In this document: positions 138 to 31,222 of the stretch, one piece after another | Numbering within the stretch: the first letter of the stretch is position 1 | Layout of the letters: each line of letters starts with the position of its first letter | Assembly: GCA_910585575.1 (NCBI GenBank) | Contig: CAJUFS010000024.1 | Location: forward strand, 1-34,293 | Length of the DNA stretch: 34,293 bases | Source of the DNA: an uncultured Adlercreutzia sp. | Lineage (GTDB): Bacteria > Actinomycetota > Coriobacteriia > Coriobacteriales > Eggerthellaceae | Direction: 5' to 3' | The notes under the pieces: generated by a model | What the model was told of the DNA's origin: nothing | The model's database searches: none | What the model saw: the letters and a program-made list of their open reading frames with translations, nothing else | Made by a program: the position numbers and the translations under genes

Positions 138-1361
138 TTAGATAGCCTCGCGCCAGGCCGGCATGGACATGCAGCGCGGGCCACCACGGCCGCGGGACAG
201 CTCGGCCGACGGCATCTCGAGCACGTTGATGCCCGACTTGTACAGGATGTCGTTGGTGACGTTGTTGCGCTGGTACACCACCACGGTGCCGGGGCGCACG
301 CACAGCGTGTTGGAGCCGTCGTTCCACTGCTCGCGCTCGGCCGCGATGCGGTCGCCGCCGCCGCAGGGGATCAGCGTGACCTTCTCGCCGACGTACTCGG
401 ACAGAACGCTCTCGAGGTCCTCGTTGCGCTCGCGGATCTTGGTGCCGCCCTTGCCGTCCGGGGTGATCTCGAACACCGTCAGCGGGCCCATGATGCCGGG
501 GTGGATGGTGAACTTGTCGCGGTCGATCTGGGTGAACACCGTGTCCAGGTGCATGAAGGCGCGGGACACCGGGATGTTGAAGGCAAGGATGGTGTCGATG
601 GTGCTCGTCTCGTCGTTGAAGACGTTGTGGGCCAGCTGATCGATGGCGTCGGGCTCGGTGCGCTGGGAGATGCCGATGGCCAGCACGTGCTCGTTGATGT
701 TCAGGATGTCGCCGCCCTCGATATGGAAGGTCATATCGCGGTGGTAGTACTCCGGCGTACCCTGGAAGTCCGGATGATACTTGAAGATGTAGTCGCCGTA
801 GATGGTCTCGCGGTTGCGCGTCTGGCTGTACATACGGTTGATGGACACGCCGTTGCCGATCATCGCGAACGGGTCGCGGGTGAAGTACAGGTTCGGCATG
901 GGGGCGCACACGAGCTTGCAGCGGTCAGACACCATGTCCACCAGCAGGTGGGTGTCGCGCTGGGGCAGCTCCTGCAGGTTGATGCCGGCCATGGTCTTCA
1001 TGACCATGTCCTTGGTGCCCGCGTAGTTGGAGTTGATGTAGTCCTTGATGATGTCCTTGTAGGTGTCGGTGCGGATGCCGGCCTCGAAGATCCACTGATC
1101 CAGGAACTTCTCGCGCAGCTCGGGATGAGCATCGATAACCTCGGCCATGAGGTCCTCGAGGTACACCACCTCGACGCCCTCGCCGCGAAGAATCTTCGCG
1201 AAGGTGTCATGCTCCTCCTGGGCCACAGGCAGGAACGGGATGTCGTCGAACAGCAGCTCTTCCAAGGTGTTCGGGGTGAGGTTCAGCAGCTCGTCGCCGG
1301 GGCGATGAAGGATGACCTTTTTGAGGTCGCCGATCTCACTTTTGACGTTTACTCCTTGCAT
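138..1361 (-). CDS. arcA: Arginine deiminase
   Basis: Cytosolic enzyme that hydrolyses L-arginine to citrulline and ammonia, first step of the ATP-yielding arginine deiminase pathway. The 407-residue length is normal for the family. Family motifs are present in order: FTRDPF at about 160-165, IEGGD at 214-218, MHLDTVFT at 270-277, and the catalytic cysteine Cys397 in GGPRCMSMP near the C-terminus. The ATG at 1361 has an AGGAGA ribosome binding site. The next gene downstream on the same strand is the start of arcB. Carbamate kinase is not adjacent; the only copy in the window is at 11662-12609 in another operon, so the two pathways may share it or another copy lies outside. Confidence 0.96.
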   Translation of the reverse strand: MQGVNVKSEIGDLKKVILHRPGDELLNLTPNTLEELLFDDIPFLPVAQEEHDTFAKILRGEGVEVVYLEDLMAEVIDAHPELREKFLDQWIFEAGIRTDTYKDIIKDYINSNYAGTKDMVMKTMAGINLQELPQRDTHLLVDMVSDRCKLVCAPMPNLYFTRDPFAMIGNGVSINRMYSQTRNRETIYGDYIFKYHPDFQGTPEYYHRDMTFHIEGGDILNINEHVLAIGISQRTEPDAIDQLAHNVFNDETSTIDTILAFNIPVSRAFMHLDTVFTQIDRDKFTIHPGIMGPLTVFEITPDGKGGTKIRERNEDLESVLSEYVGEKVTLIPCGGGDRIAAEREQWNDGSNTLCVRPGTVVVYQRNNVTNDILYKSGINVLEMPSAELSRGRGGPRCMSMPAWREAI

Positions 1362-5022: not shown

Positions 5023-6489
5023 ATGAAAGCCGCAGAAACCGACCAGAGCCTTTCCGGGCAGCGTGCCCTGTTTGTTACCACGGCAGGATTCTCGCTCTTC
5101 TACGCCGTCTGTGTTTCCTTCTTCTATTCAACGTGGCTGGTTGGCCATGCCGAAGAAGCCGTGCAGAGCTTCGACAATGTGCTCAACCTGGCCATGCTCG
5201 CTGCCGCCGCCCTCTTCTTTCTGCTCGTCCGCCACTGGAGCAATGCCACGCAAAAAGCCTGTCTCCTCCTTGGCTACCTCGCCTTGGCCGCGGGCATCGT
5301 CGTGCTTTTCTTCAATACGGTCACGCCCCTGAGCCCTACCTTTGTTCTCTTCTCCGCCGTCTGCGCGGGCGCCGGTATGAGTCTCACGGCTCCCTTCTTC
5401 TTCGCCTCCCTGGCTTCCTTTTCGCCGAAGCAGACCGCTCTCGGCTGCGGCACCATGGCCCTCGTGGGCATGGCCCTGGACATGGCCTGGTCCTTCGCAG
5501 CACCCCCGCTTTTGCTGGCCGTTCAGCTGATCGCCCTTGCTCTCTCGGCGCTGTGTCTGAAGCGCTCGTTCCAGAACTCCCCTTCCGAAGCGACACCCGA
5601 AACCACCGCCTCAGGACCCGACCCGCTTACCGCTTCGGGACAGCGCGACTTCTTCAACGTCTTTCTGGTGTCCATTATCGGCACCTTCGCCCTTTCGGTG
5701 GTTTACGGCATCATCGATACCACGGCCGCCGGCATTGGGCCTTCCGTTAAGGCAACCGCCGGTATCTCCCAAGTAGGCGGCCTGGCGGCGGCGCTGGTAT
5801 TTCTGGGATACTTCGCCCTAGCCAAGCGTACCTCGGCGACGTTTCTCTTCAACCTGGTTTTCGGACTCTTGGCCTCCGGCATGCTGCTCATCCCCTTTTT
5901 GCCGAACGACTACATGGTCACGCTGAACATTGTGGCCGCAGCGGGTTGGAAGCTTGTCATGCTCTCGCTGTTTTACCTGGTGGTCATCACCTACGCCCAT
6001 GCGCGAACGCAGCTGCTGGCCGCCATGGCCATGGCCTACGCGCTTCCCCGCTTTGGCCTGTTCATCGGCCTCAACGTCGCCCTGCTCTTTAACGTTGGTG
6101 ACGGCACGGACATTGCCCGCACCACCACCGTGGCCTTTTTCTTGCTCTACCTTATTTTCATGGCCGTGTGGTTTGCCAACACCCACGAGCGCCGCCGAGC
6201 TCTTAAGGAGATGCAGGCCGCCTACGAGGAGCTCGGCCGCTTCACCAAAGAGTCCGGCGACTATCGCAAGAACCTTGCCGAGGAGTTGGCAGCAGAGCAC
6301 GGCCTGACCAACCGCGAGAGCGACATCCTTCAGCTTCTGGCCCAAGGACGCGATGCGGCCTACATCAGCGAGACCCTTTTCCTTTCGCGCAACACGGTCA
6401 AAAGCTACCAGAAGAGCATCTACGCCAAGCTCGGCGTCCACTCAAAACAAGAGATCATCGAGTTGTTCACTCCCAAGGAAGCCTCATAG
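5023..6489 (+). CDS. Membrane-anchored LuxR-family transcriptional regulator
   Basis: 488 residues. The first about 395 residues are a chain of roughly twelve hydrophobic helices resembling an MFS-like sensor. A charged linker (about 395-420) leads to a C-terminal LuxR helix-turn-helix starting at LTNRESDIL, with LSRNTVKSY as recognition helix and KLGVHSKQE at the end. One-component regulators of this build are common in Eggerthellaceae beside respiratory reductase genes; they are thought to sense a ligand at the membrane and bind DNA. ATG 5023 has a strong AGGAGGGG ribosome binding site. The flavin reductase 153 bp downstream in the same direction is the likely target. Ligand unknown. Confidence 0.88.
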   Translation: MKAAETDQSLSGQRALFVTTAGFSLFYAVCVSFFYSTWLVGHAEEAVQSFDNVLNLAMLAAAALFFLLVRHWSNATQKACLLLGYLALAAGIVVLFFNTVTPLSPTFVLFSAVCAGAGMSLTAPFFFASLASFSPKQTALGCGTMALVGMALDMAWSFAAPPLLLAVQLIALALSALCLKRSFQNSPSEATPETTASGPDPLTASGQRDFFNVFLVSIIGTFALSVVYGIIDTTAAGIGPSVKATAGISQVGGLAAALVFLGYFALAKRTSATFLFNLVFGLLASGMLLIPFLPNDYMVTLNIVAAAGWKLVMLSLFYLVVITYAHARTQLLAAMAMAYALPRFGLFIGLNVALLFNVGDGTDIARTTTVAFFLLYLIFMAVWFANTHERRRALKEMQAAYEELGRFTKESGDYRKNLAEELAAEHGLTNRESDILQLLAQGRDAAYISETLFLSRNTVKSYQKSIYAKLGVHSKQEIIELFTPKEAS

Positions 6490-6520
6490 GCGCCTCGCGT
6501 TTCCCCAGATGAGCGTCCCC

Positions 6521-6544
6521 ACCCCAAGGGGGGTTTCGGCTTTT
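6521..6544 (+). terminator. Possible terminator after the LuxR gene
   Basis: ACCCC (6521-6525) can pair with GGGGT (6530-6534); a GC-rich segment and TTTT (6541-6544) follow. The stem is short, so this is a weak call, but it sits 32 bp after the stop codon and would separate the regulator transcript from the reductase gene. Confidence 0.35.
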
Positions 6545-6642
6545 CCCTCTTCAGGCGGGGTGCGTCAAAGCATCCTTTCCTCCTATGCTGCAAACGTCGA
6601 AACGACCAAGGCAATTCAGCAATGCATACCAAGGAGGAACTT

Positions 6643-8202
6643 ATGAGGGAGATCGCCACGAACGTATCGCGCCGCCGCTTCATCACGGGCACCGCCATGG
6701 CCGGCGCCCTGACTGCGCTGGGTCTGGCCGGCTGCGCCCCGAAGGCATCGGGTGCCGACGAGCTGCCGCAGACGGGAGTCACTCAGGATATGAACTGGGA
6801 CGAGGAGTGCGAGGTGCTGGTGGTGGGCAGCGGCTATGCCGGACTGGCCGCCGCCATCGAGGCCAAGACAGCTGGCGCCGATGTTAAGATCATCGAGAAG
6901 ACGAATCGCGTGGGCGGCAACTCGGCCTTTGCTGCCGGCGACATGGCCGTCTATGGCTCCAAGGTGCAGGAGCGCGAGGGCATCACCGACTCCATCGACG
7001 CCTTTGTTAACGATATGCTGGTGGCGGGCTTGTACCTGAACGACGAAGAGAAGTGCCGCCTCATTGCCGAAAAGTCCAACGAAACCTGGGAGTGGTCCGT
7101 CGAGATGGGCGCCACCTGGGATCAGGACGAGAACGGTGAGCCCTACCTGTACCCCTATGGCGGCCACAGTATCATGCGCACCATCTGCCAAGGTGCTGGC
7201 GGCGGCTCCAATGTAACCGGCCCGCTGTCGGAGCGCCTGGGCGAGATGGGCGTTACTGTGGAAACCGAGCGCATGCTTGTCGAACTGGTGCAGAACGGTG
7301 AAGGACGTGTGATCGGAGCCATTGTGCGCGACGGCGCCATGGACAACGACGTGGAGAGCGGGACGGCCGTCAGCATTCACGCTACGAAAGCCGTCGTTCT
7401 GGCAACGGGTGGTTTCGGACGCGACCTGGAGTTCCGCATGGCCCAAGACCCGCGCCTGGACGAAACCGTCGACTGCACGAACCAGGAAGGCGCCACCGCC
7501 GAGGCCCTCAAGGCCTCGATCAAGGCCGGTGCCATGGCCGTCCATACGGACTGGATCCAGCTTCTTCCGTTCATGAGCCCCGACGAGCAGGGCTATGGCG
7601 TGGCGGCCTTTTACACCGACGGCCAGGCCAGCTACGCCCCCACGCTCTCGAAGGCCACGGGTAAGCGCATCGTCAACGAGCTGACGGACCGCAAGCGCTA
7701 TGCCGACGCCATCCTTGAAACGGGCGAGCCCTGCATCCAGATTACCTGCGCGAAGGCGCTCTATGGCAACGGGCTCCAGGATGCCATCGATGCCGGCATT
7801 ACCAAAGAGTTCGCTTCCGTGGAAGAGGCCGCTGCCTTCTACGAGATGCCCGTGGACGTCGTAGTGGAAGAGATCAAGCGTTACAACTCCTTTGTGGCCA
7901 GCAAGGTGGACGAGGATTTCGAGAAGCCCATCCCCGATGACGCCCAGCCCATCGACGAGGCACCGTACTACGGCGTGCGCCTGTGGCCGAAGGTACACCA
8001 CTGCATGGGCGGCGTGAAGACCGATCTGGATTGCCGCGTCCTGGATATGGACCTCACTCCCATTCCGGGGCTCTTTGCGGCCGGCGAGGCCGCGGGCGGC
8101 GTTCACGGCGCCTGCCGCTTGGGCTCTTGCGCCACCACCGACTGCCTGGTCAACGGGCGTATTGCTGGCCAGAAGGCTGCAGCCGAAACGGCCGAGGCCT
8201 AA
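6643..8202 (+). CDS. Tat-exported FAD-dependent (fumarate reductase-like) oxidoreductase
   Basis: 519-residue flavoprotein of the FAD_binding_2 family (fumarate/urocanate reductase type). The N-terminus has a twin-arginine signal (SRRRF at 9-13), a hydrophobic stretch and GLAGC with Cys31, which could be a lipobox, so the protein is probably exported folded and lipid-anchored. The Rossmann FAD motif VVGSGYAGLAAA is at 60-71. Active-site signatures are retained: GKRIVNELTDR with Arg350 at the family's proton-donor position, HHCMGG from 452, and AGEAAGGVHG near 480. ATG 6643 is chosen because AAGGAGG lies directly before it, so the upstream ATG at 6622 is too early. No heme or FMN-binding domain is present, so electrons must come from a separate carrier. 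Acceptor substrate unknown. Confidence 0.9.
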   Translation: MREIATNVSRRRFITGTAMAGALTALGLAGCAPKASGADELPQTGVTQDMNWDEECEVLVVGSGYAGLAAAIEAKTAGADVKIIEKTNRVGGNSAFAAGDMAVYGSKVQEREGITDSIDAFVNDMLVAGLYLNDEEKCRLIAEKSNETWEWSVEMGATWDQDENGEPYLYPYGGHSIMRTICQGAGGGSNVTGPLSERLGEMGVTVETERMLVELVQNGEGRVIGAIVRDGAMDNDVESGTAVSIHATKAVVLATGGFGRDLEFRMAQDPRLDETVDCTNQEGATAEALKASIKAGAMAVHTDWIQLLPFMSPDEQGYGVAAFYTDGQASYAPTLSKATGKRIVNELTDRKRYADAILETGEPCIQITCAKALYGNGLQDAIDAGITKEFASVEEAAAFYEMPVDVVVEEIKRYNSFVASKVDEDFEKPIPDDAQPIDEAPYYGVRLWPKVHHCMGGVKTDLDCRVLDMDLTPIPGLFAAGEAAGGVHGACRLGSCATTDCLVNGRIAGQKAAAETAEA

Positions 8203-11661: not shown

Positions 11662-12609
11662 TTACGCGTAAGTGAAGTGGGTGCCGGTCTTCCCCTCCAG
11701 GGCTTCCTTGGCCTTGCCGAGACTCGTAATAATGGCACGTTTGGCGGGGTTGGCGCGGACGAACTTCATGCAAGCCTCCACCTTCGGCTGCATGGAGCCG
11801 CTACCGAACTGGCCCTCGGCGCAGTAGCGAGCAGCCTCCTCAAGCGACAGATGGTCGAGGTCCACCTGATCGGACGTGCCGAAGTTCACGGCCACCTTCT
11901 CCACCTCGGTGAGGATGAGCAGCGTATCGGCAGCTACGTCCTCGGCCAGAAGCTCAGCGCCGAAGTCCTTGTCGATGACAGCGGCTACGCCATCGAGCGA
12001 GCCGTCGGGGTTCTGCACCACCGGGATGCCACCACCGCCCACACACACGACAATGGCCTGGGGCCACAGCAGCTTCACGGCCTCGATCTCGACGATCTTT
12101 TGGGGCTTGGGGCTCGCCACCACACGGCGCCACCCGCCACGGGCCTTGTCCTCCTGCATGACATAGCCGCGCTCGGCCTCCAGCTGCTTGGCCTCACCCT
12201 CGTCGTAGAAGGGACCGATGGGCTTGGTGGGATGGGCGAACGAGGGATCGGCGCCGTCCACAATGGTCTGAGTGACCAGCGCCACCACCGGCACATCTAC
12301 CCCATGCTTGGCCAGCTCATGACCGAACGCCTGCTGGATGTGGTAGCCAATGTAGCCCTGACTCATGGAGCCGCACACTTCCAGCGGCATGGGCGGCACA
12401 ACGTCCTTGGCCGTCTCGGAGGACAGCAGGATGCGACCCACCTGCGGACCATTGCCGTGCACGACAGCCATCTCGTAGCCAGCAGCGGACAAGTCGGCGA
12501 GAATCTCGACAGTGTTTTTCACCACTTCAAGCTGGGAGGCCGCCGTACCATCGCTCTCCTTGGACTGCAAGGCGTTACCACCCAGCGCGATAACCACTTT
12601 TTCTGCCAT
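11662..12609 (-). CDS. arcC: Carbamate kinase
   Basis: 315-residue cytosolic kinase that transfers phosphate from carbamoyl phosphate to ADP, giving ATP, ammonia and CO2; the energy-yielding last step of deiminase pathways. The amino-acid kinase fold is clear: VIALGGNAL at 6-14, VVHGNGPQVG in the first third, and VCVGGGGIPV mid-protein, with normal length. ATG 12609 has an AAAGGAA ribosome binding site; an in-frame extension upstream crosses the hairpin repeat and is rejected. It is last in the operon after the MFS carrier (stop 12716). It is the only carbamate kinase in the window, so it may also serve the arcA-arcB pathway. Confidence 0.95.
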   Translation of the reverse strand: MAEKVVIALGGNALQSKESDGTAASQLEVVKNTVEILADLSAAGYEMAVVHGNGPQVGRILLSSETAKDVVPPMPLEVCGSMSQGYIGYHIQQAFGHELAKHGVDVPVVALVTQTIVDGADPSFAHPTKPIGPFYDEGEAKQLEAERGYVMQEDKARGGWRRVVASPKPQKIVEIEAVKLLWPQAIVVCVGGGGIPVVQNPDGSLDGVAAVIDKDFGAELLAEDVAADTLLILTEVEKVAVNFGTSDQVDLDHLSLEEAARYCAEGQFGSGSMQPKVEACMKFVRANPAKRAIITSLGKAKEALEGKTGTHFTYA

Positions 12610-12644
12610 GGGATTCCTTTCTGCTTGGTTCAACAAGAGGTTCG

Positions 12645-12672
12645 CCCGCCAGCTGCAAGGGACCGGCGGGCG
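12645..12672 (-). repeat. 28-nt hairpin repeat, copy 2 (between MFS carrier and carbamate kinase)
   Basis: Exact 28-nt copy of 11613-11640 in the same orientation; here flanking bases extend the stem to 9 bp (TCGCCCGCC with GGCGGGCGA). No T-run follows on the minus strand, so it is more likely an mRNA processing or stability hairpin than a terminator. The two copies bracket arcC. Confidence 0.65.
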
Positions 12673-12715
12673 AACGAATGCGCGCGCTGTTAAGGAGCGC
12701 ACCGGGAAAAGCAAC

Positions 12716-13996
12716 TTAGCGAGCGGCAGCCAGTTCCGCTTCCACCTCGGGATCGGCCTCCTCGGTAACATGGGGCAGTTTCTTGCCAAAAACGCCCGCG
12801 CCGATCACGGCCAGCATGATGACCACAATGGTGCCGATGCAGAACATGAACACGGCCTCGAAGGAGCCCGTCATCTCGTACAGCGACGCGATGATGAAGC
12901 CGCCCACCGAGCCGGCCGCAAAGCCGAACACGGTAATGTAGGCGAAGATCTTGCCGTAGTCCTTCGTGCCGAACACCTGTGAGGCCACGCTGGCAATGCC
13001 CACGCCCAACAGCACGTACAGCGTGTCGCCCAGGCCGGCGCCCAGGTAGGCCAGAATGGTGTTACCCGCGCTGACCATGAGGATCACCATGGCCAGAATA
13101 CCCACGAGCATCCAGGCAACAAAGGCACGGATGGCGCCGAACTTGTCGATCGTCCAACCGATCAGCGGGTTCAGGCCGATGTCGAAGATAAGGGCCACTG
13201 AGATCATGAGCGCGCCCACCGTGGGAGCGAACCCGACGCTTTCCGCGTACATGGGGAAGTAGGCGTTGATGACCGAAACGATCTGGGTCAGGGCCAGGGC
13301 GAGCGCCACCAGCACAAAGGCCAGCGACTTCACCGCGCGCTTGGCCGGCACGCCCGACTCCATAACCACCTCGCCGCGTTCCGCAGGGTCGTAGCCATAG
13401 GGCTTCAGGCCCTTGCGCTCGGGGCTGTAGGGCACCAGAAACAGCGCCGCCGGCACCGCCATCGCAATACCCACAACGGCAAAGATAAGCAGACTGGTGC
13501 GCCAATCCATGACGTTCATCAGCTCGACGGTGATCGGGCTCATAATGGCAGAAGCAACACTGGCCAGCGCCCAGGCCAGACCGATGGCCAGGCCCGTCTT
13601 TTTCGCAAACCAGTTGGTCAGCACCGTAGAGATGAACACGATACTGGTAAAGGCCATGCCGACGCCCACCAGAAAGCCGCCGATCCACCACCACACCACG
13701 CTCTGACTAAACGAGAGAATGGCCACGACCACTGACTGCAAGGCCGCAAAGCCCGCGATGCCAATGGGCGGAATCTTGTGCAGCCAGTTGCCCACCACGG
13801 GCAGACCGCAGGCAATGCCGATGTAGACCAGCGTGGAGTACAGCGAAATGCTGGCGTAGTCGGAACCGAGCGCCTCAGAAGCAGGCACGAAGAAGTTGCC
13901 GATCACCACGGTGTAGAACGTTACGGAGCCAGCGATGAGCATGCCGCAGCCCAGCACGGTGAGCCAGGCGCGCACGTTGGATTTCTTGGTATCCAT
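12716..13996 (-). CDS. MFS transporter, probable substrate carrier of the deiminase operon
   Basis: 426-residue membrane protein with about twelve hydrophobic helices in two halves separated by a charged loop near residues 190-215, as in the Major Facilitator Superfamily; it resembles the oxalate/formate antiporter-like branch. Position third in an operon with a deiminase-family enzyme, a carbamoyltransferase and carbamate kinase points to uptake of the guanidino substrate or exchange for the amine product. The equivalent carrier in known agmatine and arginine deiminase operons is usually from the APC family, so an MFS member is a departure. ATG 13996 is preceded by AAAGGATGG. Substrate is inferred from context only. 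Confidence 0.82.
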   Translation of the reverse strand: MDTKKSNVRAWLTVLGCGMLIAGSVTFYTVVIGNFFVPASEALGSDYASISLYSTLVYIGIACGLPVVGNWLHKIPPIGIAGFAALQSVVVAILSFSQSVVWWWIGGFLVGVGMAFTSIVFISTVLTNWFAKKTGLAIGLAWALASVASAIMSPITVELMNVMDWRTSLLIFAVVGIAMAVPAALFLVPYSPERKGLKPYGYDPAERGEVVMESGVPAKRAVKSLAFVLVALALALTQIVSVINAYFPMYAESVGFAPTVGALMISVALIFDIGLNPLIGWTIDKFGAIRAFVAWMLVGILAMVILMVSAGNTILAYLGAGLGDTLYVLLGVGIASVASQVFGTKDYGKIFAYITVFGFAAGSVGGFIIASLYEMTGSFEAVFMFCIGTIVVIMLAVIGAGVFGKKLPHVTEEADPEVEAELAAAR

Positions 13997-14016
13997 GGAA
14001 CCATCCTTTCGGAAAA

Positions 14017-14055
14017 GCGGAGCCACCGTCTCGCCACGCGGCTCGGCGGCTCCGC
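14017..14055 (-). other. Intercistronic hairpin upstream of the MFS gene
   Basis: GCGGAGCC (14017-14024) and GGCTCCGC (14048-14055) make a perfect 8-bp stem in the 76-nt gap between the carbamoyltransferase and MFS genes. No T-run follows on the minus strand. With the hairpins at 12645 and 74 it is a third intercistronic stem in a deiminase operon. Confidence 0.5.
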
Positions 14056-14072
14056 GACTGAAGAGCGAACGG

Positions 14073-15125
14073 CTAGATGCCCATCGTGGCGGCTAGTACG
14101 GCCTTGATGGTGTGCTGACGGTTGCCCGCCTCACGGAAGATCTCGCTAGCGTGCTTCTCGAACAGCTCATCGGAAATCTCCATGCCCTCGGTGATGATTT
14201 TGCGCGATTCCTCGTCCGGGGCCTGGGCAAGCAGCTGCTGGCCCAGGGAGTGATCGGCATTGTGCAGCGACGGCAGCATGTGCAGCACCACCACGTTCGG
14301 GTTATCCACCACTTCCATCAGCTCGCTGGTCAGGCGATAGGGAATGAGGTCCTTGGCGTAGGACATCCAGGCATCGTAGCCGTGGTCGTCGCCAGTGGAG
14401 GAGGTAGTGTACTCCCACTCCTCGGTGGTCACGATATCCATGCCCTTCAGCAGGTTCACGTCGTCGGAAATGACCAGCTTGTTGTTAGGCGCCCACTTCG
14501 CGAACAGCTCTTCCAGCTCCTCCACGTACTCGGGGATCATCTTGTGGTCGTACAGGTCGGGGCCGATGGCGTAGCAGTCCATGCCCAGCAGCGCGCACAT
14601 GCGGCCGTACCACAAAGGCGAGATGGCGCAGGCGCCGGTGTAGGCGAGCTTCTTCCCCTTGCAGGAGCCGGGGCCTCCCCACAACTCCTCCAGCGTCATG
14701 GCGTCAGCCAGCATCTGAGTGGGATGATCCTCGGTGGTCAGGGCGTTGATGACAGGGATGTCGGCGTAGTCGGCAATCTTGTACATGAATTTCTCGGGGC
14801 CCTGGGAGCGCCACACGATGGCGTCGTACATCTCGTTGAACACGCGAATGGTGTCCTTCACCGTCTCCTGCACGCCCACGTGGGAATTGGAGAGGTAGGT
14901 GAAGCCAAGGCCCAGATCATGGCAGGAGGTCTCAAAGGCGCAGCGGGTGCGGGTGGAGCCCCACTCGAATTGGGCGATGACGTCCTTGTTCACGAAACGA
15001 CGCTGATCGACACCAGCGCGCTTCTCGGCCTTCAGCTCATGAGCCAGGTCGAGCAGGTAACGGAACTGGTCGGGGGTGAAGTCACGCAGGTTGATGAAGT
15101 CGCGACCAAGAATCGGGTTTCCCAT
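14073..15125 (-). CDS. Divergent carbamoyltransferase (ornithine/putrescine carbamoyltransferase-like)
   Basis: 350 residues of the aspartate/ornithine carbamoyltransferase family. The carbamoyl-phosphate half is canonical: STRTR at 57-61 and HPTQ at 134-137. The amino-substrate half is not. The GDxxNNM loop that holds ornithine reads TGACAISP (163-170), the DxWxSMG loop reads DAWMSYAK (251-258), and the HCLP motif is HMLP (282-285) with the active-site cysteine replaced by methionine. These do not match putrescine carbamoyltransferase as I know it either. A separate true arcB begins at the window's left edge, so this is a paralogue. By context it should phosphorolyse the carbamoyl product of the upstream deiminase to give carbamoyl phosphate for carbamate kinase. 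Start ATG 15125 has GAAAGGAAA before it. Substrate unassigned. Confidence 0.85.
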   Translation of the reverse strand: MGNPILGRDFINLRDFTPDQFRYLLDLAHELKAEKRAGVDQRRFVNKDVIAQFEWGSTRTRCAFETSCHDLGLGFTYLSNSHVGVQETVKDTIRVFNEMYDAIVWRSQGPEKFMYKIADYADIPVINALTTEDHPTQMLADAMTLEELWGGPGSCKGKKLAYTGACAISPLWYGRMCALLGMDCYAIGPDLYDHKMIPEYVEELEELFAKWAPNNKLVISDDVNLLKGMDIVTTEEWEYTTSSTGDDHGYDAWMSYAKDLIPYRLTSELMEVVDNPNVVVLHMLPSLHNADHSLGQQLLAQAPDEESRKIITEGMEISDELFEKHASEIFREAGNRQHTIKAVLAATMGI

Positions 15126-15165
15126 GATAGTTTCCTTTCAGGATAAAGTGATCAGTTGCGGGGGG

Positions 15166-16413
15166 TTAGGCACGGGCGGGCACGTAGACGTTCTTCGTCC
15201 AGCAGTGCACGCCGCCGCCGGCCATGTTCAGTGCCAGGGAGTCGATCATGACCACCTTGCGGTCGGGGAAGCAGGCCTTCAGCGCGGCCTCGGCCTGGGC
15301 GTCCTTCTCCTTGATGGCCTCGTCCATACCCTCCTGCCAATAGCGCTGGCCCAGCACCACGCCGTTGCACACCAAGAAGTTGCAGTAGCTGGTAGCGCCG
15401 AACAGGTGCAGCTCGTCTTCGGGCCAGGGGGTGCCGTCCATAAAGGCATCACCCACCAGCTCGTGGTAGTAGTCGTACAGGTCGTCGCCGGGACGCTGGA
15501 TGTACTGGATGTGGGCCGACGCAGGAATGCGCACGATCTCGAAGGGGTTGCCGTCCACGTCGGTGGCAGCGGCCAGCACCTCATAGGCGGCGTCGAGGCG
15601 GCGCTTGTTCTCGGCGGAGATGCGGTTCTCGGCGGCCTCTTCCTCGGTTACCTCAGCCAGGAGGATCTTGTTCTTGTCAATGAAGCGGCACATCTCGTCG
15701 GTATGGGCGGCGAAGCTGGCGCCCACGATGGGGGTGCCATCGGCTTCGTAGTCGAGCGGGGCCACGCGGAAGTCGTCGTCATCGTAGAGCGGCTGGGGCA
15801 GCCAGATGATCTTCTCCACGTTCCACAAGCGCTTGTACTCTTCCTCGATCTGCTCCTTGGTGTATTCCGGGTTGCGCTTGCGCACCTCCGTGTCCTCGAT
15901 GGCAATGAGAACGCCGGCACCGTTGAACTCGCGGTCACCGCCCTCGGACACCATGTCGGAGCTGACCACGTCGTAGCAGCCCAGGGCGATGGCTGACTGC
16001 ACGCCGATCTGACGGGAGTAGTCGCGCAGGCCCTCGTTCTTGGGGTAACGACCGTAGAAGCTCCAGCTGGGGTTCACCACCAGCGTCTCGCCCTCGTCGT
16101 TCACCAAGACGTTGGGGCCGTTGTCGCGGAAGTAGAACGAGTTGGGGTCCTCGTTGAATTGCGTGAAGTCGATCTTCTCAAGATCAAGGCCTGCGGCACC
16201 CAGGGTCTGCTTACAGGATTCCATCAGCCCCTCGACCATGGGGCAGCAGTTGATGTGCACCTGCACGTCGCCGTGCTCCATCAAGTTGCGCACTACCTCC
16301 GTGACCGGCGCCAGGGCGTTGTAGCCCTCAATGGGTTCGCCGTACGGCAGCCACTCGACGAACACGTCAGTCTGCGGCTCGAACTCCCCTGGATAGCGAA
16401 ACGCACTGCTCAT
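15166..16413 (-). CDS. Agmatine deiminase family protein (PAD_porph fold)
   Basis: 415 residues, first gene of the operon. The N-terminal RYPGEFEPQ (6-14) and the catalytic set of the guanidino-group-modifying superfamily are present: FRDNGP (95-100), SEGGD (156-160), HTDE (237-240) and Cys404 in GGGVHCWT. It differs from classic agmatine deiminases: it is about 40-50 residues longer, has GGD where they have GGS(F/I)H, and HTDE in place of GHVD. Activity on a guanidino compound (agmatine or another) yielding a ureido product and ammonia is therefore likely, but the exact substrate is not. ATG 16413 has a strong AAAGGAGG ribosome binding site. It is divergent from a membrane LuxR regulator. 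Confidence 0.85.
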   Translation of the reverse strand: MSSAFRYPGEFEPQTDVFVEWLPYGEPIEGYNALAPVTEVVRNLMEHGDVQVHINCCPMVEGLMESCKQTLGAAGLDLEKIDFTQFNEDPNSFYFRDNGPNVLVNDEGETLVVNPSWSFYGRYPKNEGLRDYSRQIGVQSAIALGCYDVVSSDMVSEGGDREFNGAGVLIAIEDTEVRKRNPEYTKEQIEEEYKRLWNVEKIIWLPQPLYDDDDFRVAPLDYEADGTPIVGASFAAHTDEMCRFIDKNKILLAEVTEEEAAENRISAENKRRLDAAYEVLAAATDVDGNPFEIVRIPASAHIQYIQRPGDDLYDYYHELVGDAFMDGTPWPEDELHLFGATSYCNFLVCNGVVLGQRYWQEGMDEAIKEKDAQAEAALKACFPDRKVVMIDSLALNMAGGGVHCWTKNVYVPARA

Positions 16414-16722
16414 ACATCCTCCTTTGGGATTGGGTTTGCAGCCCCGCGGCACCGAGGCTGCCTCTCTGGCCCACACCCTAAAGGCGGAAATGACGCTTGC
16501 GAAGACAGAACCGAGTTGATTTTTCTTGAGGACGTGCTTCTACTTCCGATAAACTTTCACAATTGCAAAATAAACTCGCGTAAACTCAGCGATGAACTGG
16601 TAATCCTCGGGGCAGCTTCTGAAGAAATATGAAGTCCAGCATCTTTTCTGCCGCAAAAAAGCCGCCTCATCTTACAATCAAACTATCGCCCTTACCCAAA
16701 GGACTGCCGAGAGGAAACGACC
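16414..16722. promoter_or_regulatory. Divergent control region with phased TAAACT repeats
   Basis: 309 bp between the deiminase operon and the LuxR regulator, with no gene. TAAACT occurs at 16550-16555, 16571-16576 and 16581-16586, spaced 21 and 10 bp, that is on one DNA face; a near copy TGAACT is at 16593-16598. A TACAAT at 16673-16678 may be the regulator's -10 element. GCAGCC/GGCTGC around 16439-16462 could form a small hairpin in the operon leader. Binding by the LuxR protein is inferred. Confidence 0.45.
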
Positions 16723-17691
16723 ATGGCTCTTTCTTATCTCATTGCGATTATTTTGATTGGCGTCTGCATCGGAGCCGCCTTCGTCGGATTCTCAGCCTAT
16801 GCCGTTTCCCAAAGAAAGATGCTGTTTTATCTTGCCGGATTCTCGTTGTGCTACGCCATCGAGCAATGCCTTATTTTCTTCCACGAGTTTCTCGGCCAGA
16901 ACCTCTCGTTCCACGCTGAAAATTTCAGCGGGCTGGAAGACCCCTTTCTTCATCTGATTGCCGGATCCGTCCTTTGTGAATGTCTTTGGCTCGCCTGCTT
17001 GTCGTTCTTCCACCGCAACGAGGGAAACTTGAGATGGGTTCCTACGGGCGCGTTTATCGTGCTCTCGATTCTGGTCGCCGTGTTTCCCTTTGAAAGCGAC
17101 AGCCTCAAGAAATGGATGTTCTACAGCATACGCCAGCTATTCTTCCTGTGGGTGGCAGCCTATTGCGCGTATCGCTACGTTAAAGCCTCGTCGGAAGCTA
17201 CCAAATCGCGGTACCGCAGCCACGCCTTGGTATTTGCCGTGTTCGTTGCTCTGGTGCTCTTTACCCTCGCAGAAGACACCGTGGTGATGCTGTTTGTCAA
17301 TCCCAGCCTTTTCGACGATGATTTTATTCTGGCCTATCTCTACCGCCGCAACACCATGGAGGCGCTGCTCGTGCTTTGCATTATCGGCTACACCACCTAT
17401 CTTTCCATCCAGTCCTTGCGGCTAAAAAGCGAAGACGCACCTCGGCCCGTTGAAGAGCGTCAGCAGGCTCACATGCGCGATATTCTCCCCTATTTCGCCC
17501 GCAAGCACGACCTCACAAGTCGCGAGGAAGAAATCCTCGCCTATCTCATCGACGGAGAAGACAACGCCTCCATTGCCCGCCGTCTGCAGGTTTCCCTCGG
17601 CACCGTAAAAACCCACACTCACCATATTTTCAAGAAGACAGGGTCTTCAAACCGTAAAGAGTTGCTGCAGATATTCTGGTCCGATCGCTGA
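16723..17691 (+). CDS. Membrane-anchored LuxR-family regulator of the deiminase operon
   Basis: 322 residues: about seven hydrophobic helices fill residues 1-225, then a linker and a C-terminal LuxR helix-turn-helix beginning LTSREEEIL with VSLGTVKTHTHHIF as recognition helix. Smaller sensor than the regulator at 5023 but the same overall plan. Divergent placement next to the deiminase operon suggests it controls it. Lactococcal AguR, the activator of the agmatine deiminase operon, is likewise described as a membrane LuxR protein, so the arrangement has a functional parallel. ATG 16723 has AGAGGAAA upstream. Ligand unknown. Confidence 0.88.
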   Translation: MALSYLIAIILIGVCIGAAFVGFSAYAVSQRKMLFYLAGFSLCYAIEQCLIFFHEFLGQNLSFHAENFSGLEDPFLHLIAGSVLCECLWLACLSFFHRNEGNLRWVPTGAFIVLSILVAVFPFESDSLKKWMFYSIRQLFFLWVAAYCAYRYVKASSEATKSRYRSHALVFAVFVALVLFTLAEDTVVMLFVNPSLFDDDFILAYLYRRNTMEALLVLCIIGYTTYLSIQSLRLKSEDAPRPVEERQQAHMRDILPYFARKHDLTSREEEILAYLIDGEDNASIARRLQVSLGTVKTHTHHIFKKTGSSNRKELLQIFWSDR

Positions 17692-24354: not shown

Positions 24355-25272
24355 CTACACCCACCGCTCGCGCATGAAGGCCCATTGGGCGTCGCGAACG
24401 GCCTCGAGGGCGGCCAGGTCGGCCTCGTCATCGGCGCTGAAGCGGCCCTGACGACGCAGATAGGGCTCAATGGGCTTGAACTGCTTCGGGTTGCGGTTCA
24501 GACGGAACACCCCACCGGGCACGCCGCTGACCGCGTCGCCCTCGTACTCGGCCAGGTACCACAGGCCCGTGTCCACAATCTCCTTTGCCACATCCACCAT
24601 GTCGGCGCTGGGGAAGCCCCACCCCACGGGACAGGGCGCCATCACGTGGATGAAGCGGGTGCCCTTGATATCGCGGGCGCGCTCCACCTTCTTGATGAAG
24701 TCGTTCAGATAGCCCACCGACGCCGTGGCAGCATAGGGAATATGATGGGCGGCCACAATTTCGAAAAGGCTCTTCTTGTTGGTGAGGCAGCCGTGGGCGT
24801 TCTTGCCCGCCGGCGTCGTGGTGGTAGACGCGCCCCGCGGCGTAAGGCTCGACTTCTGAATGCCCGTGTTCATGTAGGCCTCGTTGTCGTAGCAGATATA
24901 GAGCACATCGTCGTTGCGATCGATGGCGCCGGACAGCGCCTGCAGGCCGATATCGGCCGTGCCGCCGTCGCCGGCGAAGCCCACCACAGTGCACTCCTCG
25001 GGCTTCTTGCCCTGGGCGCGCAAACCCGCCTCAATGCCCGAAAGCACCGAGGCCGTGGCGGCGAAGGGCGTGATCATGGCGTTGTTGCCGAAGGCCAGCT
25101 GCGGGAAGTTGAAGCCCGTGGCGCTCATGCAGCCGGCGGGCAGCGCGGCCACAGCCTGGGGTCCCAGCACCTTCAGCACCTGGCGCACCACCAGGGCACC
25201 ACCGCACCCCGGGCAGGCCTTATGGCCGTAGAAGAACTCCTCGTCGGTAATGGTACGGGCGTTGACGCTCAT
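24355..25272 (-). CDS. porB: 2-oxoacid:ferredoxin oxidoreductase, beta subunit (pyruvate synthase)
   Basis: 305 residues, thiamine-diphosphate-binding subunit of the four-subunit Por enzyme, which oxidises pyruvate (or another 2-oxoacid) with CoA to acyl-CoA, CO2 and reduced ferredoxin. The cluster-ligating CPGCGG at 20-25, Cys48 in PAGCMS, APCPVGW later, and the TPP motif GDGGTADIG (101-109) with the following NEAYMNTG are all present. Its ATG overlaps the porA stop as ATGA, with AAGGAGG inside porA, so translation is coupled. It is the last gene of porGDAB. Confidence 0.93.
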   Translation of the reverse strand: MSVNARTITDEEFFYGHKACPGCGGALVVRQVLKVLGPQAVAALPAGCMSATGFNFPQLAFGNNAMITPFAATASVLSGIEAGLRAQGKKPEECTVVGFAGDGGTADIGLQALSGAIDRNDDVLYICYDNEAYMNTGIQKSSLTPRGASTTTTPAGKNAHGCLTNKKSLFEIVAAHHIPYAATASVGYLNDFIKKVERARDIKGTRFIHVMAPCPVGWGFPSADMVDVAKEIVDTGLWYLAEYEGDAVSGVPGGVFRLNRNPKQFKPIEPYLRRQGRFSADDEADLAALEAVRDAQWAFMRERWV

Positions 25273-26486
25273 CGCGCACCTCCTTCCGTTGCCGATGCCG
25301 AAACAACCTGCACGTCGTCGATGCCCAGGAACCGCACGGGATCGATCGGGCGCTCCTGCGTGGCCGCCAGCTGCTCCAAGGCGGCAAAGGCGTCCTCCAT
25401 CTGGGCGCGGGAGATATCGTCGCCGCCCAGGCCGCCGATGAAGTTCAGGGCCGGCGGACAAGCCCCATGCCGGGCCAAGGCCGACAGCACGTTGGTGAAC
25501 ACGGTGCCCTCGGCGCCGAAGGAAATATCCTGTTCCAGCACGCCCACGGCGCGCACGCCTTCCAGAGCATGCGCAATCAGGCGGTCGGGCATCGGACGCA
25601 GATAGCGAATGCGCAGCATACCGGCGCGCTTCCCCGCCGCCCGCAGGCCGTCTACCACATCGCGAGCCAAACCCGCCGCCGAGCCTAGCGTGACCAGCAC
25701 GAACTCCGCGTCATCGCACTGGTAGGTCTCGACCATGCCCGGATACTGGCGTCCCACAGTTTCCGCAAAGCGCTCCTCCACCTCTGCGATGACCGCTTCC
25801 GCCGCCCGCATATCGCGATGGTGCTGGTACTGGTAGTAGCGGTTGTACTCGGGGCCGGCGGAGTAGCCGATGTTCTTCGGAGCGCCGAAATCGAACTGAT
25901 TGTCGGTGCGATACGACGGCAGGAAGGCATCAGCTTCCTCGGCCGAGGGAATCTCCACCGACTCGTAGGTATGAGTAAGCGCGAAACCGTCCACATTCAC
26001 CATGATCGGCAGCGACACGCGCTCGTCCTCAGCCACGGCGTAGGCCATGAGCGCCAGATCCAGCGCCTCCTGGTTGTTCTCGGCGTACACCTGGATCCAG
26101 CCGTGATCCAACAGCGACAGCGAGTCGCGCTGGTCGCCGTAGATGTTCCACGGCAGGGCCAACGCGCGGTTCGCGTTCATCATCACAATGGGGAACCGGC
26201 CGCCTGAGGCGTAAGTCAGACACTCGGCCATGTACAGCAGACCCTGGGAAGACGTGGCCGTAAAGGTGCGTGCGCCCGTGGCCGCCGCGCCGATGGCCGC
26301 CGACAGCGCCGTGTGCTCGCTTTCCACGTGCAGGTACTCGCAATCCAGCGAGCCCTCCTCCACCATGACCGACAGCGCTTCCACCACGGTAGTCTGGGGT
26401 GTAATGGGGTACGCGCTGATCACCTGGGGACGCGCCAGACGCACACCTTCGGCAAAGGCCTCGTTGCCTGAAAGAAACTTCCGCAT
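25269..26486 (-). CDS. porA: 2-oxoacid:ferredoxin oxidoreductase, alpha subunit
   Basis: 405 residues. The pyrimidine-binding domain carries SGNEAFAEGVRLARPQV near the N-terminus, AYPITPQT (25-32) and the conserved VESEHTALSAAIGAAATGART (given in part), with a C-terminal transketolase-like domain containing LEQDISFGAEGTVF. ATG 26486 follows a GGAGGTGG ribosome binding site and starts directly after the porD stop codon. Pyruvate is the likely substrate from the gene order and overall likeness, but branched-chain 2-oxoacids are not excluded. Confidence 0.93.
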   Translation of the reverse strand: MRKFLSGNEAFAEGVRLARPQVISAYPITPQTTVVEALSVMVEEGSLDCEYLHVESEHTALSAAIGAAATGARTFTATSSQGLLYMAECLTYASGGRFPIVMMNANRALALPWNIYGDQRDSLSLLDHGWIQVYAENNQEALDLALMAYAVAEDERVSLPIMVNVDGFALTHTYESVEIPSAEEADAFLPSYRTDNQFDFGAPKNIGYSAGPEYNRYYQYQHHRDMRAAEAVIAEVEERFAETVGRQYPGMVETYQCDDAEFVLVTLGSAAGLARDVVDGLRAAGKRAGMLRIRYLRPMPDRLIAHALEGVRAVGVLEQDISFGAEGTVFTNVLSALARHGACPPALNFIGGLGGDDISRAQMEDAFAALEQLAATQERPIDPVRFLGIDDVQVVSASATEGGAR

Positions 26487-26909
26487 CTATGCCACCTCCC
26501 CAATGGGTCCGTCGACGGGCGGCAGTCCCGCGGCCGTTTCCTCGTCAACGGGGGCACCCTCGTTCTCGCCGGCATGCTCGTCCACCATGGCAATGCAGTC
26601 AGCGGGACACACCTTGGCGCACACCCCGCAGCCTTTGCAGAAATCGTAGTCGATGGCCACGGCCGTGAGCACGCCCTCCTCGTCGCGCACCTTGAACACG
26701 GTGCCGTCGGGGCAGTACATGTAGCAGTTCAGGCAGAGCGTGCACTGCACCGGGTCGATAAGGGGCTTCTCGCTGCGCCAACCGGCATTGATCGAGGTCA
26801 GGAAGCCGGCGGTATAGCAAGTGCTGCGCGCGTACTCCTCGGGCGGTGTTGAAAGCCCGTCGCGCAGAAACGGCGTGAAGGGCCGGCGCGGGCTAGAAAT
26901 CGCGTCCAT
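26487..26909 (-). CDS. porD: 2-oxoacid:ferredoxin oxidoreductase, delta subunit (2x[4Fe-4S])
   Basis: 140 residues. Two canonical 4Fe-4S motifs: Cys56, 59, 62, 66 (CTLCLNCYMYCP) and Cys91, 94, 97, 101 (CKGCGVCAKVCP). It passes electrons from the TPP site to ferredoxin. The long N-terminal stretch (1-50) before the first cluster is usual for separate delta subunits, and a Glu/Pro-rich tail follows the second. Overlaps porG by 17 bp, with GGAAAGGAG inside porG. Confidence 0.93.
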   Translation of the reverse strand: MDAISSPRRPFTPFLRDGLSTPPEEYARSTCYTAGFLTSINAGWRSEKPLIDPVQCTLCLNCYMYCPDGTVFKVRDEEGVLTAVAIDYDFCKGCGVCAKVCPADCIAMVDEHAGENEGAPVDEETAAGLPPVDGPIGEVA

Positions 26910-27582
26910 TGGCGCTCCTTTCCTCTCCCTCGGTCAGGGAATCGCCCTCGACCAGAATCTCGGCGGCCAAGTTGAACAGCGGGTCTTTCTCGCTCAGGGA
27001 CTGCGTGACTTCCACAGCCGGCTGCTCGCCCTCGACGAACGAGCGTGTGCCCGCAATTTCCCGTTCGACCATCTGCCTGTAAGCCGCCTCCACAATGGCC
27101 AGGTTCTTCTCGTGAAGCTTGGCCGGCATGGTGGCGCGGATGCCCTCCTGGACGTCGGCCAGATTGACCACGTCGGTCAGGGCCGGAATGACACCCAGGA
27201 ACACGGTGTTGGGAATGGGGCGCTTCAGCACCACCTGGGAAATGCCGTCGGCATCCACCGCCACAATACGCGGGTCGTCGACAGCGCGCCGCGCGTTCAG
27301 CAGCACGAGGCCGCCCTCTTTCAGCTCGGATTCCCAACCGTCCTCCAGCAGCGTCTCGTCCAGATACACCACGAAGTCGGCCTTCTGCACCGCGCTGCGA
27401 TCGCCGATGGGCGCGTCCGAGATCTTCGTGAAGGCCCGCATGGGCGCGCCGCGCCGCTCGGGACCGAACGTGGGAAACGCCAGCGCTGAGCGCCCCGCGG
27501 AAAGCGCCGCCGCGGCCCCCAGGCACCGAGCCGCTGTAAAGGCGCCCTGACCCCCGCGGGCATGCCAAATAACTTCCACCAT
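26893..27582 (-). CDS. porG: 2-oxoacid:ferredoxin oxidoreductase, gamma subunit
   Basis: 229 residues, first gene of porGDAB. The family signature WHARGGQGAFTAAR (6-19) near the N-terminus and FPTFGPERRGAP (36-47) are intact; the CoA-binding gamma domain follows. The last about 45 residues are acidic and poorly conserved. ATG 27582 has AAAGGA upstream and the operon's -10 element TATACT lies 58 bp before. Confidence 0.93.
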   Translation of the reverse strand: MVEVIWHARGGQGAFTAARCLGAAAALSAGRSALAFPTFGPERRGAPMRAFTKISDAPIGDRSAVQKADFVVYLDETLLEDGWESELKEGGLVLLNARRAVDDPRIVAVDADGISQVVLKRPIPNTVFLGVIPALTDVVNLADVQEGIRATMPAKLHEKNLAIVEAAYRQMVEREIAGTRSFVEGEQPAVEVTQSLSEKDPLFNLAAEILVEGDSLTEGEERSANGRDF

Positions 27583-28384: not shown

Positions 28385-29227
28385 CTAGGAGAACAGGTAC
28401 AGGACGTACTGCAACAGCTTACCCAGGGCCGTGCGCTCCGGCACGGACAGTGCCTCCCACTTCTCGGCCTGAGCGGCCGCCAAGCGCTGGGTGAAGTCGG
28501 TGATGCGCTGGAACCCTGCCTCGGTGCAGCCCAGGACATCGCCCTCAAGAACCAGCCCGCGGTCGCGCAAGCCCTCCATCTGCACGTCTAGAAAACGCTC
28601 GGACAGCCCCAGGTCCTCGGCCCGCGTCCCCGCGGAAAGCCCCGGACGACTGACGCACACCCGGCCCAGCACCACCACCTGCAGCGACGTCATGCCGAAC
28701 CGCGCGGCAATGAGCACCACCCGGTGCCAGAATGCGACCAGCTGACGCAGCACCGGCGCCGGGAACAGGCCCGCAGTCGTGGCAGGATATCCCGCAGCCC
28801 GAGCATAGCCGTAGCCCAGTTCGACCAGTTGATCGAAACTCTCCTCCGTCAAGCCCGGAAACGCCTCCACCATCCGGGCCCCGAGCGCACGATCGATCAA
28901 CGCCGAGCGCTCCGCCCCCTTGGCCGTGGCGCACAGGGCCAGGGCGCGGCGGTCCTCGGCGCTGCGTCCCAGCGCCGCCAGCTCACGCTCGGCCAGGGGC
29001 CGCACGAACGGCGCCGTCCCCTCGGCGGCCTCGGCGCAGAACCCGTAGTCCTCGCGCAGCTTCCGCAGGGAAAGGCCTTGGCTGCGGGCGGTCACATCAG
29101 CCAGCACGGCCGCGCCGGGCAAGTCAAGATCGCTCGCCCTGCGGCAGGCATCGTCCATCAGCTCGTACAGCCGGTGCAGCACCGCCACGGTGGCGGGATC
29201 GGACAACCGGGCCGGAGTCGCGCTCAT
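28385..29227 (-). CDS. Protein with MarR-like winged helix, function unknown
   Basis: 280 residues. The first about 160 are Ala/Leu-rich and helical with no recognised family. Residues about 165-250 follow a MarR-type plan: a helix (FWHRVVLIAARFGMT), a helix-turn-helix (AEDLGLSERFLDVQMEGL), then DRGLV, a short wing and TEAGFQRI. A DNA-binding role is therefore plausible but unproven. The ATG at 29227 overlaps the polyferredoxin stop as ATGA, so it is translationally coupled to an electron-transfer protein, an odd place for a regulator. It could also be a degenerate chaperone-like protein. Confidence 0.7.
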   Translation of the reverse strand: MSATPARLSDPATVAVLHRLYELMDDACRRASDLDLPGAAVLADVTARSQGLSLRKLREDYGFCAEAAEGTAPFVRPLAERELAALGRSAEDRRALALCATAKGAERSALIDRALGARMVEAFPGLTEESFDQLVELGYGYARAAGYPATTAGLFPAPVLRQLVAFWHRVVLIAARFGMTSLQVVVLGRVCVSRPGLSAGTRAEDLGLSERFLDVQMEGLRDRGLVLEGDVLGCTEAGFQRITDFTQRLAAAQAEKWEALSVPERTALGKLLQYVLYLFS

Positions 29228-30471
29228 GGCCGCTCCCCCTCTCCGTTGACCTTGGGGGCATCATCCCGGGCTTCGGGCACGACCTCCCAGGCCCGACCGC
29301 CCTCGCGCGCAGAGCGCTCAGCGGGCGATTCCACGCCCAGTTGGGCCCGGATGCGCGACACCAGACTGGGGCGCGCCGCCTCGGCGGCGCAGGGCGGGCA
29401 CAAACGGTCGTCGGCGCCGCTCAGCACGGGCATACCGCAGCGCTCGCAGCGGTGGGCGTCGCGCGAGAAGCACTCCACTCCCTGGAAGGGGTGAGCGAAC
29501 GCGCGGTAGTCGCGAGAGAGTGCGCCCTCGGGGCACACTGCCAGACACAGCCCGCAGTTCACGCAGGTGCCGGGCACGAACACGTGGGAGAACACGCCAT
29601 CCTCGAGGTAATGGCTGATGGAGCCCGTGGGGCACATCTGCATGCACACACCGCAGGCCCGGCACTTCTCAGGGTCGGCCACCAGCTCGGGCCACGCGAA
29701 GTCGCAGGCTCCCGAGGCGGAAAATCCCTGGCGCGTCCACAGCTCGGCCGCACGGCGGCGCCAAGCGGGCACGTGCTTGCTGCGCTGACGCAGGGCCAGC
29801 GGCGAGCGCTTCTTCGCCGGCGACGCCTGGCGACGCACCCCGCCGAACAGCGCGCGAATGCTGGCTCGGGCCGAGGGCGCTGCCAAAGGAGAATCTCCCT
29901 GGGGCACGGTCAAGCGCGGCAGGAACAGCGGCGCCGACTCCGTAAGGTTCGCCGAGGCGCGCACGCCGTGCAGCATGCGGAAAGCGGCCGTCACGTTGGC
30001 CTCGAAGGTGGGGCGCAAGCGCGCGAACAGGCCGCAGCTCTCGCAGCGCTCGGTGCGCAGCTCACAAGGACGGGAAAGGGCCAGTTCGAACAGGACGCCG
30101 GGGCTCAGCGAAGCCAGGCAGGCGCCCAGCTGGTAGGTGCGCGGCCCCTGGCCGAGGGCCTCCAGTTGCCCGTAGGGCAGAAAGCACCGCAGACTCACCG
30201 GCTCCTCGCCTTTAATGCGGTTCACCAGCTGACGCTCGGTGAAACTGGGGGACTCGAACACCTCCAGGGGGCACGCCGTCAGGCACTGGCCGCACTGCAT
30301 ACAGCGCGCCGGGTTGATAACGGGCGCACCGCCGGGCCCCTCGAGCCGCAGAGCGGTGCCAGGGCACGAGTCGGCGCACAACGAACAGGCGCTGCCCACG
30401 CTGCGCGCATGCAGGCAGCGCTCGCCGTGCAGCTCGATGACGATCTTGTTCGTGCGGTCGCCGGTGGCCAT
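29224..30471 (-). CDS. Polyferredoxin, multi [4Fe-4S] protein
   Basis: 415 residues, cytosolic by lack of signal or membrane segment. Four cluster-like cysteine sets: an irregular one near the N-terminus (Cys19, 29, 32, 36), CMQCGQCLTACP around 58-69, CRACGVCMQMCP and CVNCGLCLAVCP in the C-terminal half; a CxxC...CxxC zinc-like pair (CERCGMP, CPPC) follows. The middle (about 85-240) has CELRTERCESCG and a basic stretch. The start is ATG 30471 with GGGAGGGG before it. It resembles NapG/NapF- or HycB-like accessory electron carriers, but no exact match is claimed. It may deliver electrons or help assemble the neighbouring molybdoenzyme. Confidence 0.83.
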   Translation of the reverse strand: MATGDRTNKIVIELHGERCLHARSVGSACSLCADSCPGTALRLEGPGGAPVINPARCMQCGQCLTACPLEVFESPSFTERQLVNRIKGEEPVSLRCFLPYGQLEALGQGPRTYQLGACLASLSPGVLFELALSRPCELRTERCESCGLFARLRPTFEANVTAAFRMLHGVRASANLTESAPLFLPRLTVPQGDSPLAAPSARASIRALFGGVRRQASPAKKRSPLALRQRSKHVPAWRRRAAELWTRQGFSASGACDFAWPELVADPEKCRACGVCMQMCPTGSISHYLEDGVFSHVFVPGTCVNCGLCLAVCPEGALSRDYRAFAHPFQGVECFSRDAHRCERCGMPVLSGADDRLCPPCAAEAARPSLVSRIRAQLGVESPAERSAREGGRAWEVVPEARDDAPKVNGEGERP

Positions 30472-30565
30472 GCCCCTCCCCTCTCCAACGCGGCCGATGC
30501 ACCCTATGATAGCGAAGCCGGGGCTTCGGCGCACGGGCCGCGCCCGCCGCTGCCAGCCCCGCGCG

Positions 30566-31186: not shown

Positions 31187-31222
31187 AGCGGCCTCCTTCA
31201 CAACAATGCACCGACCGGCGAA

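Follow-up and report, generated by a model that had tools for sequence, protein, structure and literature searches.

The stretch of DNA analyzed here, called the window, makes up the entire contig C24 (CAJUFS010000024.1; 34,293 nucleotides) in the 2.76 Mb, 90% complete assembly of an uncultured Adlercreutzia sp. of the family Eggerthellaceae (GCA_910585575.1). The subject of the analysis is an operon on its minus strand (11662-16413) and the compound it may use. Four genes with short gaps between them encode a deiminase, a transcarbamylase, a major facilitator superfamily (MFS) carrier and a carbamate kinase; gene calling and family assignment agree in this with the initial annotation, and the gene call of the window revealed no additional operon gene. 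Shine-Dalgarno-like stretches were found upstream of the deiminase (AAAGGAGG) and of the transcarbamylase (GAAAGGAAA).

Table 1. Features of the operon and of the arginine deiminase genes in the window.
Feature	Position	Strand	Remarks
Deiminase (pentein, PAD_porph family)	15166-16413	-	415 aa, PF04371
Transcarbamylase	14073-15125	-	350 aa, PF02729+PF00185
MFS carrier	12716-13996	-	PF07690
Carbamate kinase (ArcC)	11662-12609	-	above TIGR00746 cut-off
LuxR-type regulator, divergent	16723-17691	+	GerE domain at C-terminal end
Divergent intergenic region, putative promoter/operator	16414-16722	.	Shine-Dalgarno AAAGGAGG before deiminase
arcA, arginine deiminase; separate pathway, outside operon	138-1361	-	PF02274, 401 bits
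Presumed arcB, first ~13 codons	1-41	-	rest lost at contig end

The carbamate kinase is the sole operon protein passing its curated model cut-off (388 bits against TIGR00746, cut-off 358) and the sole carbamate kinase above the family cut-off in its own genome. The deiminase reached 111 of the 382 bits required by TIGR03380 and 124 of the 483 required by PRK13551, both AguA models. For the transcarbamylase, the cut-offs were missed with the best two ornithine transcarbamylase (OTC) models (PRK04284, 245/515 bits; TIGR00658, 208/281), with the putrescine transcarbamylase (PTC) model TIGR04384 (143/500 bits; 126 in the genome search) and with the YgeW models TIGR03316 (52/500) and PRK07200 (60/453). 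The nearest NCBIfam models of the carrier are lactate, bile-salt and oxalate/formate carriers, the lactate MFS carrier being best with 89 of 320 bits. When the own genome was searched, the AguA model recovered the window gene only, below cut-off, and the PTC model the window gene and a weak match on contig C30, again both below cut-off. The latter match is probably pyrB.

Pairs of this kind were found in the window's own order only, phyla beyond Actinomycetota being covered by a pattern-seeded scan alone. Transferases at least 83% identical to that of the window occur in 11 of 138 genomes from the family (its own genome counted); 7 represent a second level, at 55-63% identity, and fragments are found in G104 (68%) and G042 (49%). 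The pattern-seeded scan, made on the genome collection, yielded 10 loci of 83-98% identity, six from metagenome-assembled genomes and four from named species (Parvibacter caecicola, Raoultibacter timonensis, Senegalimassilia anaerobia, Slackia exigua). The order of regulator, deiminase, transferase and carrier is preserved in all ten, so the operon arrangement goes beyond chance. Relatives of the LuxR-type regulator stand beside the operon in each of these ten class A loci, and many of the family's agmatine operons likewise have one next to them. The pattern FEWxSTRTRCAFE cannot capture class C or those class B members that read FMW (see below). Among 396 genomes of the class it matched 18, each of them belonging to the window's own order; the reversed control pattern had no match among the genomes listed for that sample. 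A deiminase search of 395 genomes of the order (E ≤ 1e-15) had matches in 35, AguA-family genes being counted; in another family, f4, identities were 57% (five genomes), 45% (one) and 31% (one). Across 396 evenly sampled genomes of the phylum, six had a deiminase match, and the single one outside the order was weak (29% identity).

The pairs of deiminase and transferase were sorted into classes. Class A, to which the window belongs, combines a Trp/HMLP transferase with an MFS carrier, class B a Trp transferase having HELP or HMLP with a different MFS carrier, and class C a Met/HMLP transferase with NhaC-, YfcC- or ArcD-like carriers. Neighboring genes of class B and C loci were inspected as a clue to the substrate and none points to a compound; six class B loci share a gene family divergent to the operon, which is of TetR type in the one member scanned. 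At a further locus, assigned to class D (L091:8193-10576), a deiminase of the window's superclade is accompanied by a transferase of the PTC side (HFLP) and by a different MFS carrier. From this locus, deiminase and transferase partners may have been exchanged between lineages.

The superfamily motifs SxRT, HPxQ and HxLP are present in the transcarbamylase as STRTR, HPTQ and HMLP. These had already been reported together with TGACAISP and DAWMSYAK, and all five were confirmed; DAWMSYAK, however, which had been counted toward the altered substrate side, sits downstream of the substrate loop, and it is an enlarged EYTTSSTGDDHGY stretch that replaces the SMG loop of OTC. In excerpts of two papers, the substrate residues of OTC are given as Lys53, Asn167, Asp231, Ser235 and Met236 (PMC3282769, PMC4581275). 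The window enzyme has Trp55 at the place of the Lys, Glu235 at that of the Asp, and an enlarged 240s loop. The OTC signature (Lys in FxKxSxRT, DxxxSMG loop, HCLP) is altered in all 27 class A-C rows of the alignment: the Lys53 position holds Trp (23) or Met (4), the Asp231 position is Glu throughout, the Ser235 position is Tyr/Phe in 26 and Asn in one, Cys273 (the Cys of HCLP) is replaced by Met (17) or Glu (10), and Asn167 and Met236 are lost in every row. The carbamoyl-phosphate residues S55, R57, H133, Q136, L274 and R319 are kept in 27/27. The Gln of the 80s loop is replaced by His in the 11 class rows displayed, the residue which human OTC has at this position according to a passage of PMC4581275. 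The PTC signature, described in part of PMC3282769 as a Gln before STRT, a (Y/W)(G/W)(V/L/I)x loop, HCLP and a C-terminal extension, is absent: the window enzyme has Trp for Gln, an EYTT loop and HMLP, and its chain stops at the OTC end. With cut-offs of both types missed and specificity residues lost, the earlier view of a transferase fitting neither ornithine nor putrescine is supported. Moreover, HMLP in class A versus HELP in 10 of 12 class B rows suggests that the substrates of the two classes differ.

The deiminase, correctly described before as long, carries EGGD and FAAHTDE. Its predicted model (predicted local distance difference test score, pLDDT, 78; predicted template modeling score, pTM, 0.82) has as its top fold match 1xkn, deposited as a putative peptidyl-arginine deiminase, and agmatine deiminases come next; the 17 best structure chains are 21-25% identical. 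Asp97, His237, Asp239 and Cys404 are present as catalytic residues, and the Asp/His/Asp/Cys set, which an excerpt of PMC6447857 gives as D94, H224, D226 and C366 for Medicago agmatine deiminase, is conserved in all 29 class A-C rows. In the same excerpt, the amine of agmatine is contacted by D220 and, through water, by D89 (PMC6447857). The D89 position is Asp in all 46 AguA-family rows versus none of the 29 class A-C rows, and position 220 is acidic in 42 of the 46 versus Ser in all 29. In addition, about 20 residues are inserted ahead of HTDE, and the gate-loop region is lengthened. An Arg replacing the tunnel Trp125, which would have hinted at a carboxylate substrate, was rejected, as it appeared solely in the pairwise HMMER alignment; multiple alignments give Tyr, which also stands at this position in 22 of the 46 AguA-family rows.

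Both enzymes were placed in trees, a check which the initial annotation had proposed. The transferase tree comprised 53 of 73 rows (YgeW and 19 near-copies omitted); the alignment was restricted to proteins with a coverage of at least 75% relative to the best reference and excluded the duplicate loci L045, L054, L055 and L057. Classes A, B and C are united in a single clade (100/100, branch 1.01), in which class A is nested inside B and which adjoins ArcB of Eggerthellaceae (98/98). The PTC family, represented by annotated plasmid genes as references, is a separate 100/100 group with the window transferase outside. A quick tree of 67 rows had a like topology with supports of 100 and 90. In the deiminase tree (quick method), classes A to D (30 of 78 rows) are one clade with a Shimodaira-Hasegawa-like approximate likelihood ratio (SH-aLRT) of 100 and a branch of 2.58. 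Hence, neither enzyme clusters with annotated PTC or agmatine deiminase references, not all of which are biochemically proven, and each falls in a supported clade of its own. Over 27 pairs, deiminase and transferase have diverged in step (Mantel r 0.97; this value was reached by 0 of 9999 permutations), which partly reflects shared species history. At four class A loci (L034, L035, L037, L040), the transferase is 95-98% identical to that of the window and the deiminase 84-85%. Recent horizontal transfer was considered for transferases so alike across genera and was rejected, since fourfold sites differ by 0.25-0.43 in both genes alike; stronger constraint on the transferase than on the deiminase would be the better reading. 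Counter to it, both enzymes of L043 are 83% identical.

The kept catalytic residues, the operon and the genome's sole carbamate kinase above cut-off argue for the fermentation of a guanidino compound with gain of ATP. Taken together, the operon probably serves "dihydrolase"-type substrate-level phosphorylation, with a guanidino compound that is neither arginine nor agmatine as its fuel, and the earlier proposal of a route through a ureido intermediate to an amine is thereby supported at the level of sequence. The MFS carrier would import R-NH-C(=NH)NH2, perhaps exchanging the amine product. Judging by its fold and catalytic residues, the deiminase would then free ammonia to give the ureido compound R-NH-CO-NH2, which the transcarbamylase, with its conserved carbamoyl-phosphate site, would convert with phosphate to R-NH2 and carbamoyl phosphate. 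From the latter, the carbamate kinase, whose family is assigned above cut-off, would form ATP, CO2 and ammonia. The LuxR-type regulator, by its position and kin, presumably governs the operon. As for R, a free amine at the far end is disfavored because the amine-contacting acids are lost in the deiminase, and an alpha-amino acid end because the OTC Lys and SMG are lost in the transferase; we infer that R ends in neither. A weak best guess would be an omega-guanidino acid of small size, or else a guanidine that is neutral or acylated.

Several points weigh against this reading. The lost OTC Lys also disfavors a carboxylate at OTC's position, which weakens the guess of an omega-guanidino acid, and the hint of the carrier toward a substrate lies under every model cut-off. 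The residue mapping of the transcarbamylase relies on about 36-38% identity to the best plasmid OTCs and that of the deiminase on aligning relatives of 21-25% identity; Ser235 itself is Gly in two of five OTC rows. A transcarbamylase structure prediction from 11 close relatives was unusable (pLDDT 36.7). Monophyly of the OTC rows is not rejected by the approximately unbiased test (p-AU 0.17), and a long-branch warning applies to the key joint in the transferase and the deiminase trees; this p value and the meeting of long branches make the exact point of origin of the transferase within OTC tentative. Finally, a carbamate kinase follows the operon in just three of the ten class A scan loci; locus L034 stops 465 bases past the carrier.

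The agmatine deiminase pathway (aguA, PTC, APC carrier, carbamate kinase) resembles the window in implied chemistry, in enzyme superfamilies and in having carrier and kinase in the operon, and the initial annotation had recognized its gene order here. The enzyme set is indeed the same; the agmatine operons of two reference plasmids, however, run PTC-APC-AguA-carbamate kinase, unlike the deiminase-first order of the window, and the carrier is MFS (PF07690), not APC, as had been noted. A strongly diverged agmatine pathway, with the amine held by other residues and another carrier, would fit this common enzyme set and the fold shared with agmatine deiminases. It also gains from the fact, likewise unfavorable to the reading preferred here, that no AguA-family deiminase was found by the search in eight of the 11 class A genomes (among them G042, which has a class B deiminase), nor one above cut-off in the own genome; because of this, it keeps some plausibility for those eight. 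Nevertheless, we regard it as unlikely. The window deiminase and transferase neither fall in the AguA and PTC clades nor reach the respective cut-offs, and substrate-site residues are lost: both amine-contacting acids are gone in 29/29 rows, and the transferase lacks every PTC signature tested and stands on the OTC side of the tree. Besides the class A pair, the remaining three class A genomes (G086, G087, G095) hold a further AguA-family enzyme, and ordinary agmatine operons are encoded elsewhere in several class B genomes (G005, G051, G052, G053, G062), with PTC (about 57-63% identical to references), an APC carrier, AguA (about 46-63%) and often a carbamate kinase.

Compared with the arginine deiminase pathway (arcA, arcB, arcD, arcC), the window transferase is on the catabolic OTC side and the kinase of the ArcC family, whereas the deiminase belongs to the AguA/PAD_porph type rather than being an ArcA. 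A second arginine route, from arginine via citrulline to ornithine by an AguA-like deiminase and an OTC offshoot, would agree with the transferase adjoining ArcB of the same bacterial family and with its OTC C-terminal end and Arg319. We consider it the least probable reading, given the loss of Lys53, Asn167 and Met236 in 27/27 rows and the presence of arginine pathway genes in the window already. Of the separate arcA-arcB reported there earlier, arcA is genuine; arcB amounts to its first codons at the contig end. A biosynthetic or detoxifying role, in which the transferase works forward to make a ureido compound or the deiminase clears a toxic guanidine, could draw on the reversibility of transcarbamylases stated in part of PMC3282769 and on the biosynthetic DPTCase and DBTCase mentioned in part of PMC4581275. 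This role appears very improbable, as the operon's own deiminase would provide the ureido compound and as the operon holds the only carbamate kinase above cut-off and no further gene. DPTCase, DBTCase, UGTCase and YgeW are described in that part of PMC4581275 as transcarbamylases with an altered HxLP or 240s loop; the window transferase differs from this group in having no HDLP, H(T/S)LP or TRWQ loop.

The fuels yielding ATP from carbamoyl phosphate are listed in PMC4581275 as arginine, agmatine and a ureido compound derived from a purine, and catabolic transcarbamylases yet to be discovered are expected there. A description of the present deiminase-transcarbamylase pair was not found in open-licence PMC literature, which is no proof of absence. 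According to part of PMC10234575, Eggerthella lenta grows on agmatine and has one complete "agmatine" operon which is not induced by agmatine; the authors suggest that a deiminase operon of this bacterial group may serve "a related compound". By gene numbering, the uninduced operon seems to be the AguA/PTC/APC set near 2.57 Mb of G052, unlike the window pair.

For the Coriobacteriales as a whole, it is possible, with a chance we would set slightly below even, that an undescribed radiation of such pairs exists, in which at least three pocket classes, differing in their carriers, would each gain ATP by fermenting a guanidino compound of its own from the host or the diet (e.g., guanidinoacetate, creatine, guanidinobutyrate or acylated agmatine). 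If the proposed function is true, this operon family of gut Coriobacteriales would add a fuel and an enzyme pair of new specificity to those known and might be a sink for guanidino compounds relevant in kidney disease and nutrition, and the genes would be spared annotation as agmatine deiminase or ornithine carbamoyltransferase.

Many paralogues of deiminase and transcarbamylase were seen in Eggerthellaceae (L088-L127; G051, G052, G053, G019 and others). G051 alone has 12 transferase matches, pieces and pyrB possibly being counted, and nine deiminase matches, which are six distinct genes by their coordinates. Among 40 PTC-family rows, the PTC Gln is missing in nine and the Cys of HCLP in seven; such rows may represent further specificities. 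An AguA subgroup of eight rows has AQDKGP for RD(C/T)GP and EGGA for EGGS (L094, L088, L098, L101, L106, L113, L117, L121), with PTC and/or APC genes adjoining in several, and its member in G052 may belong to the operon left uninduced by agmatine.

Elsewhere in the window, a second GerE-domain regulator adjoins an FAD-binding flavoprotein (PF00890) at 5023-8202. Genes for 2-oxoacid:ferredoxin oxidoreductase and, close to a molybdopterin oxidoreductase, for a 4Fe-4S ferredoxin-type protein are located at 24355-27441 and 29224-34204.

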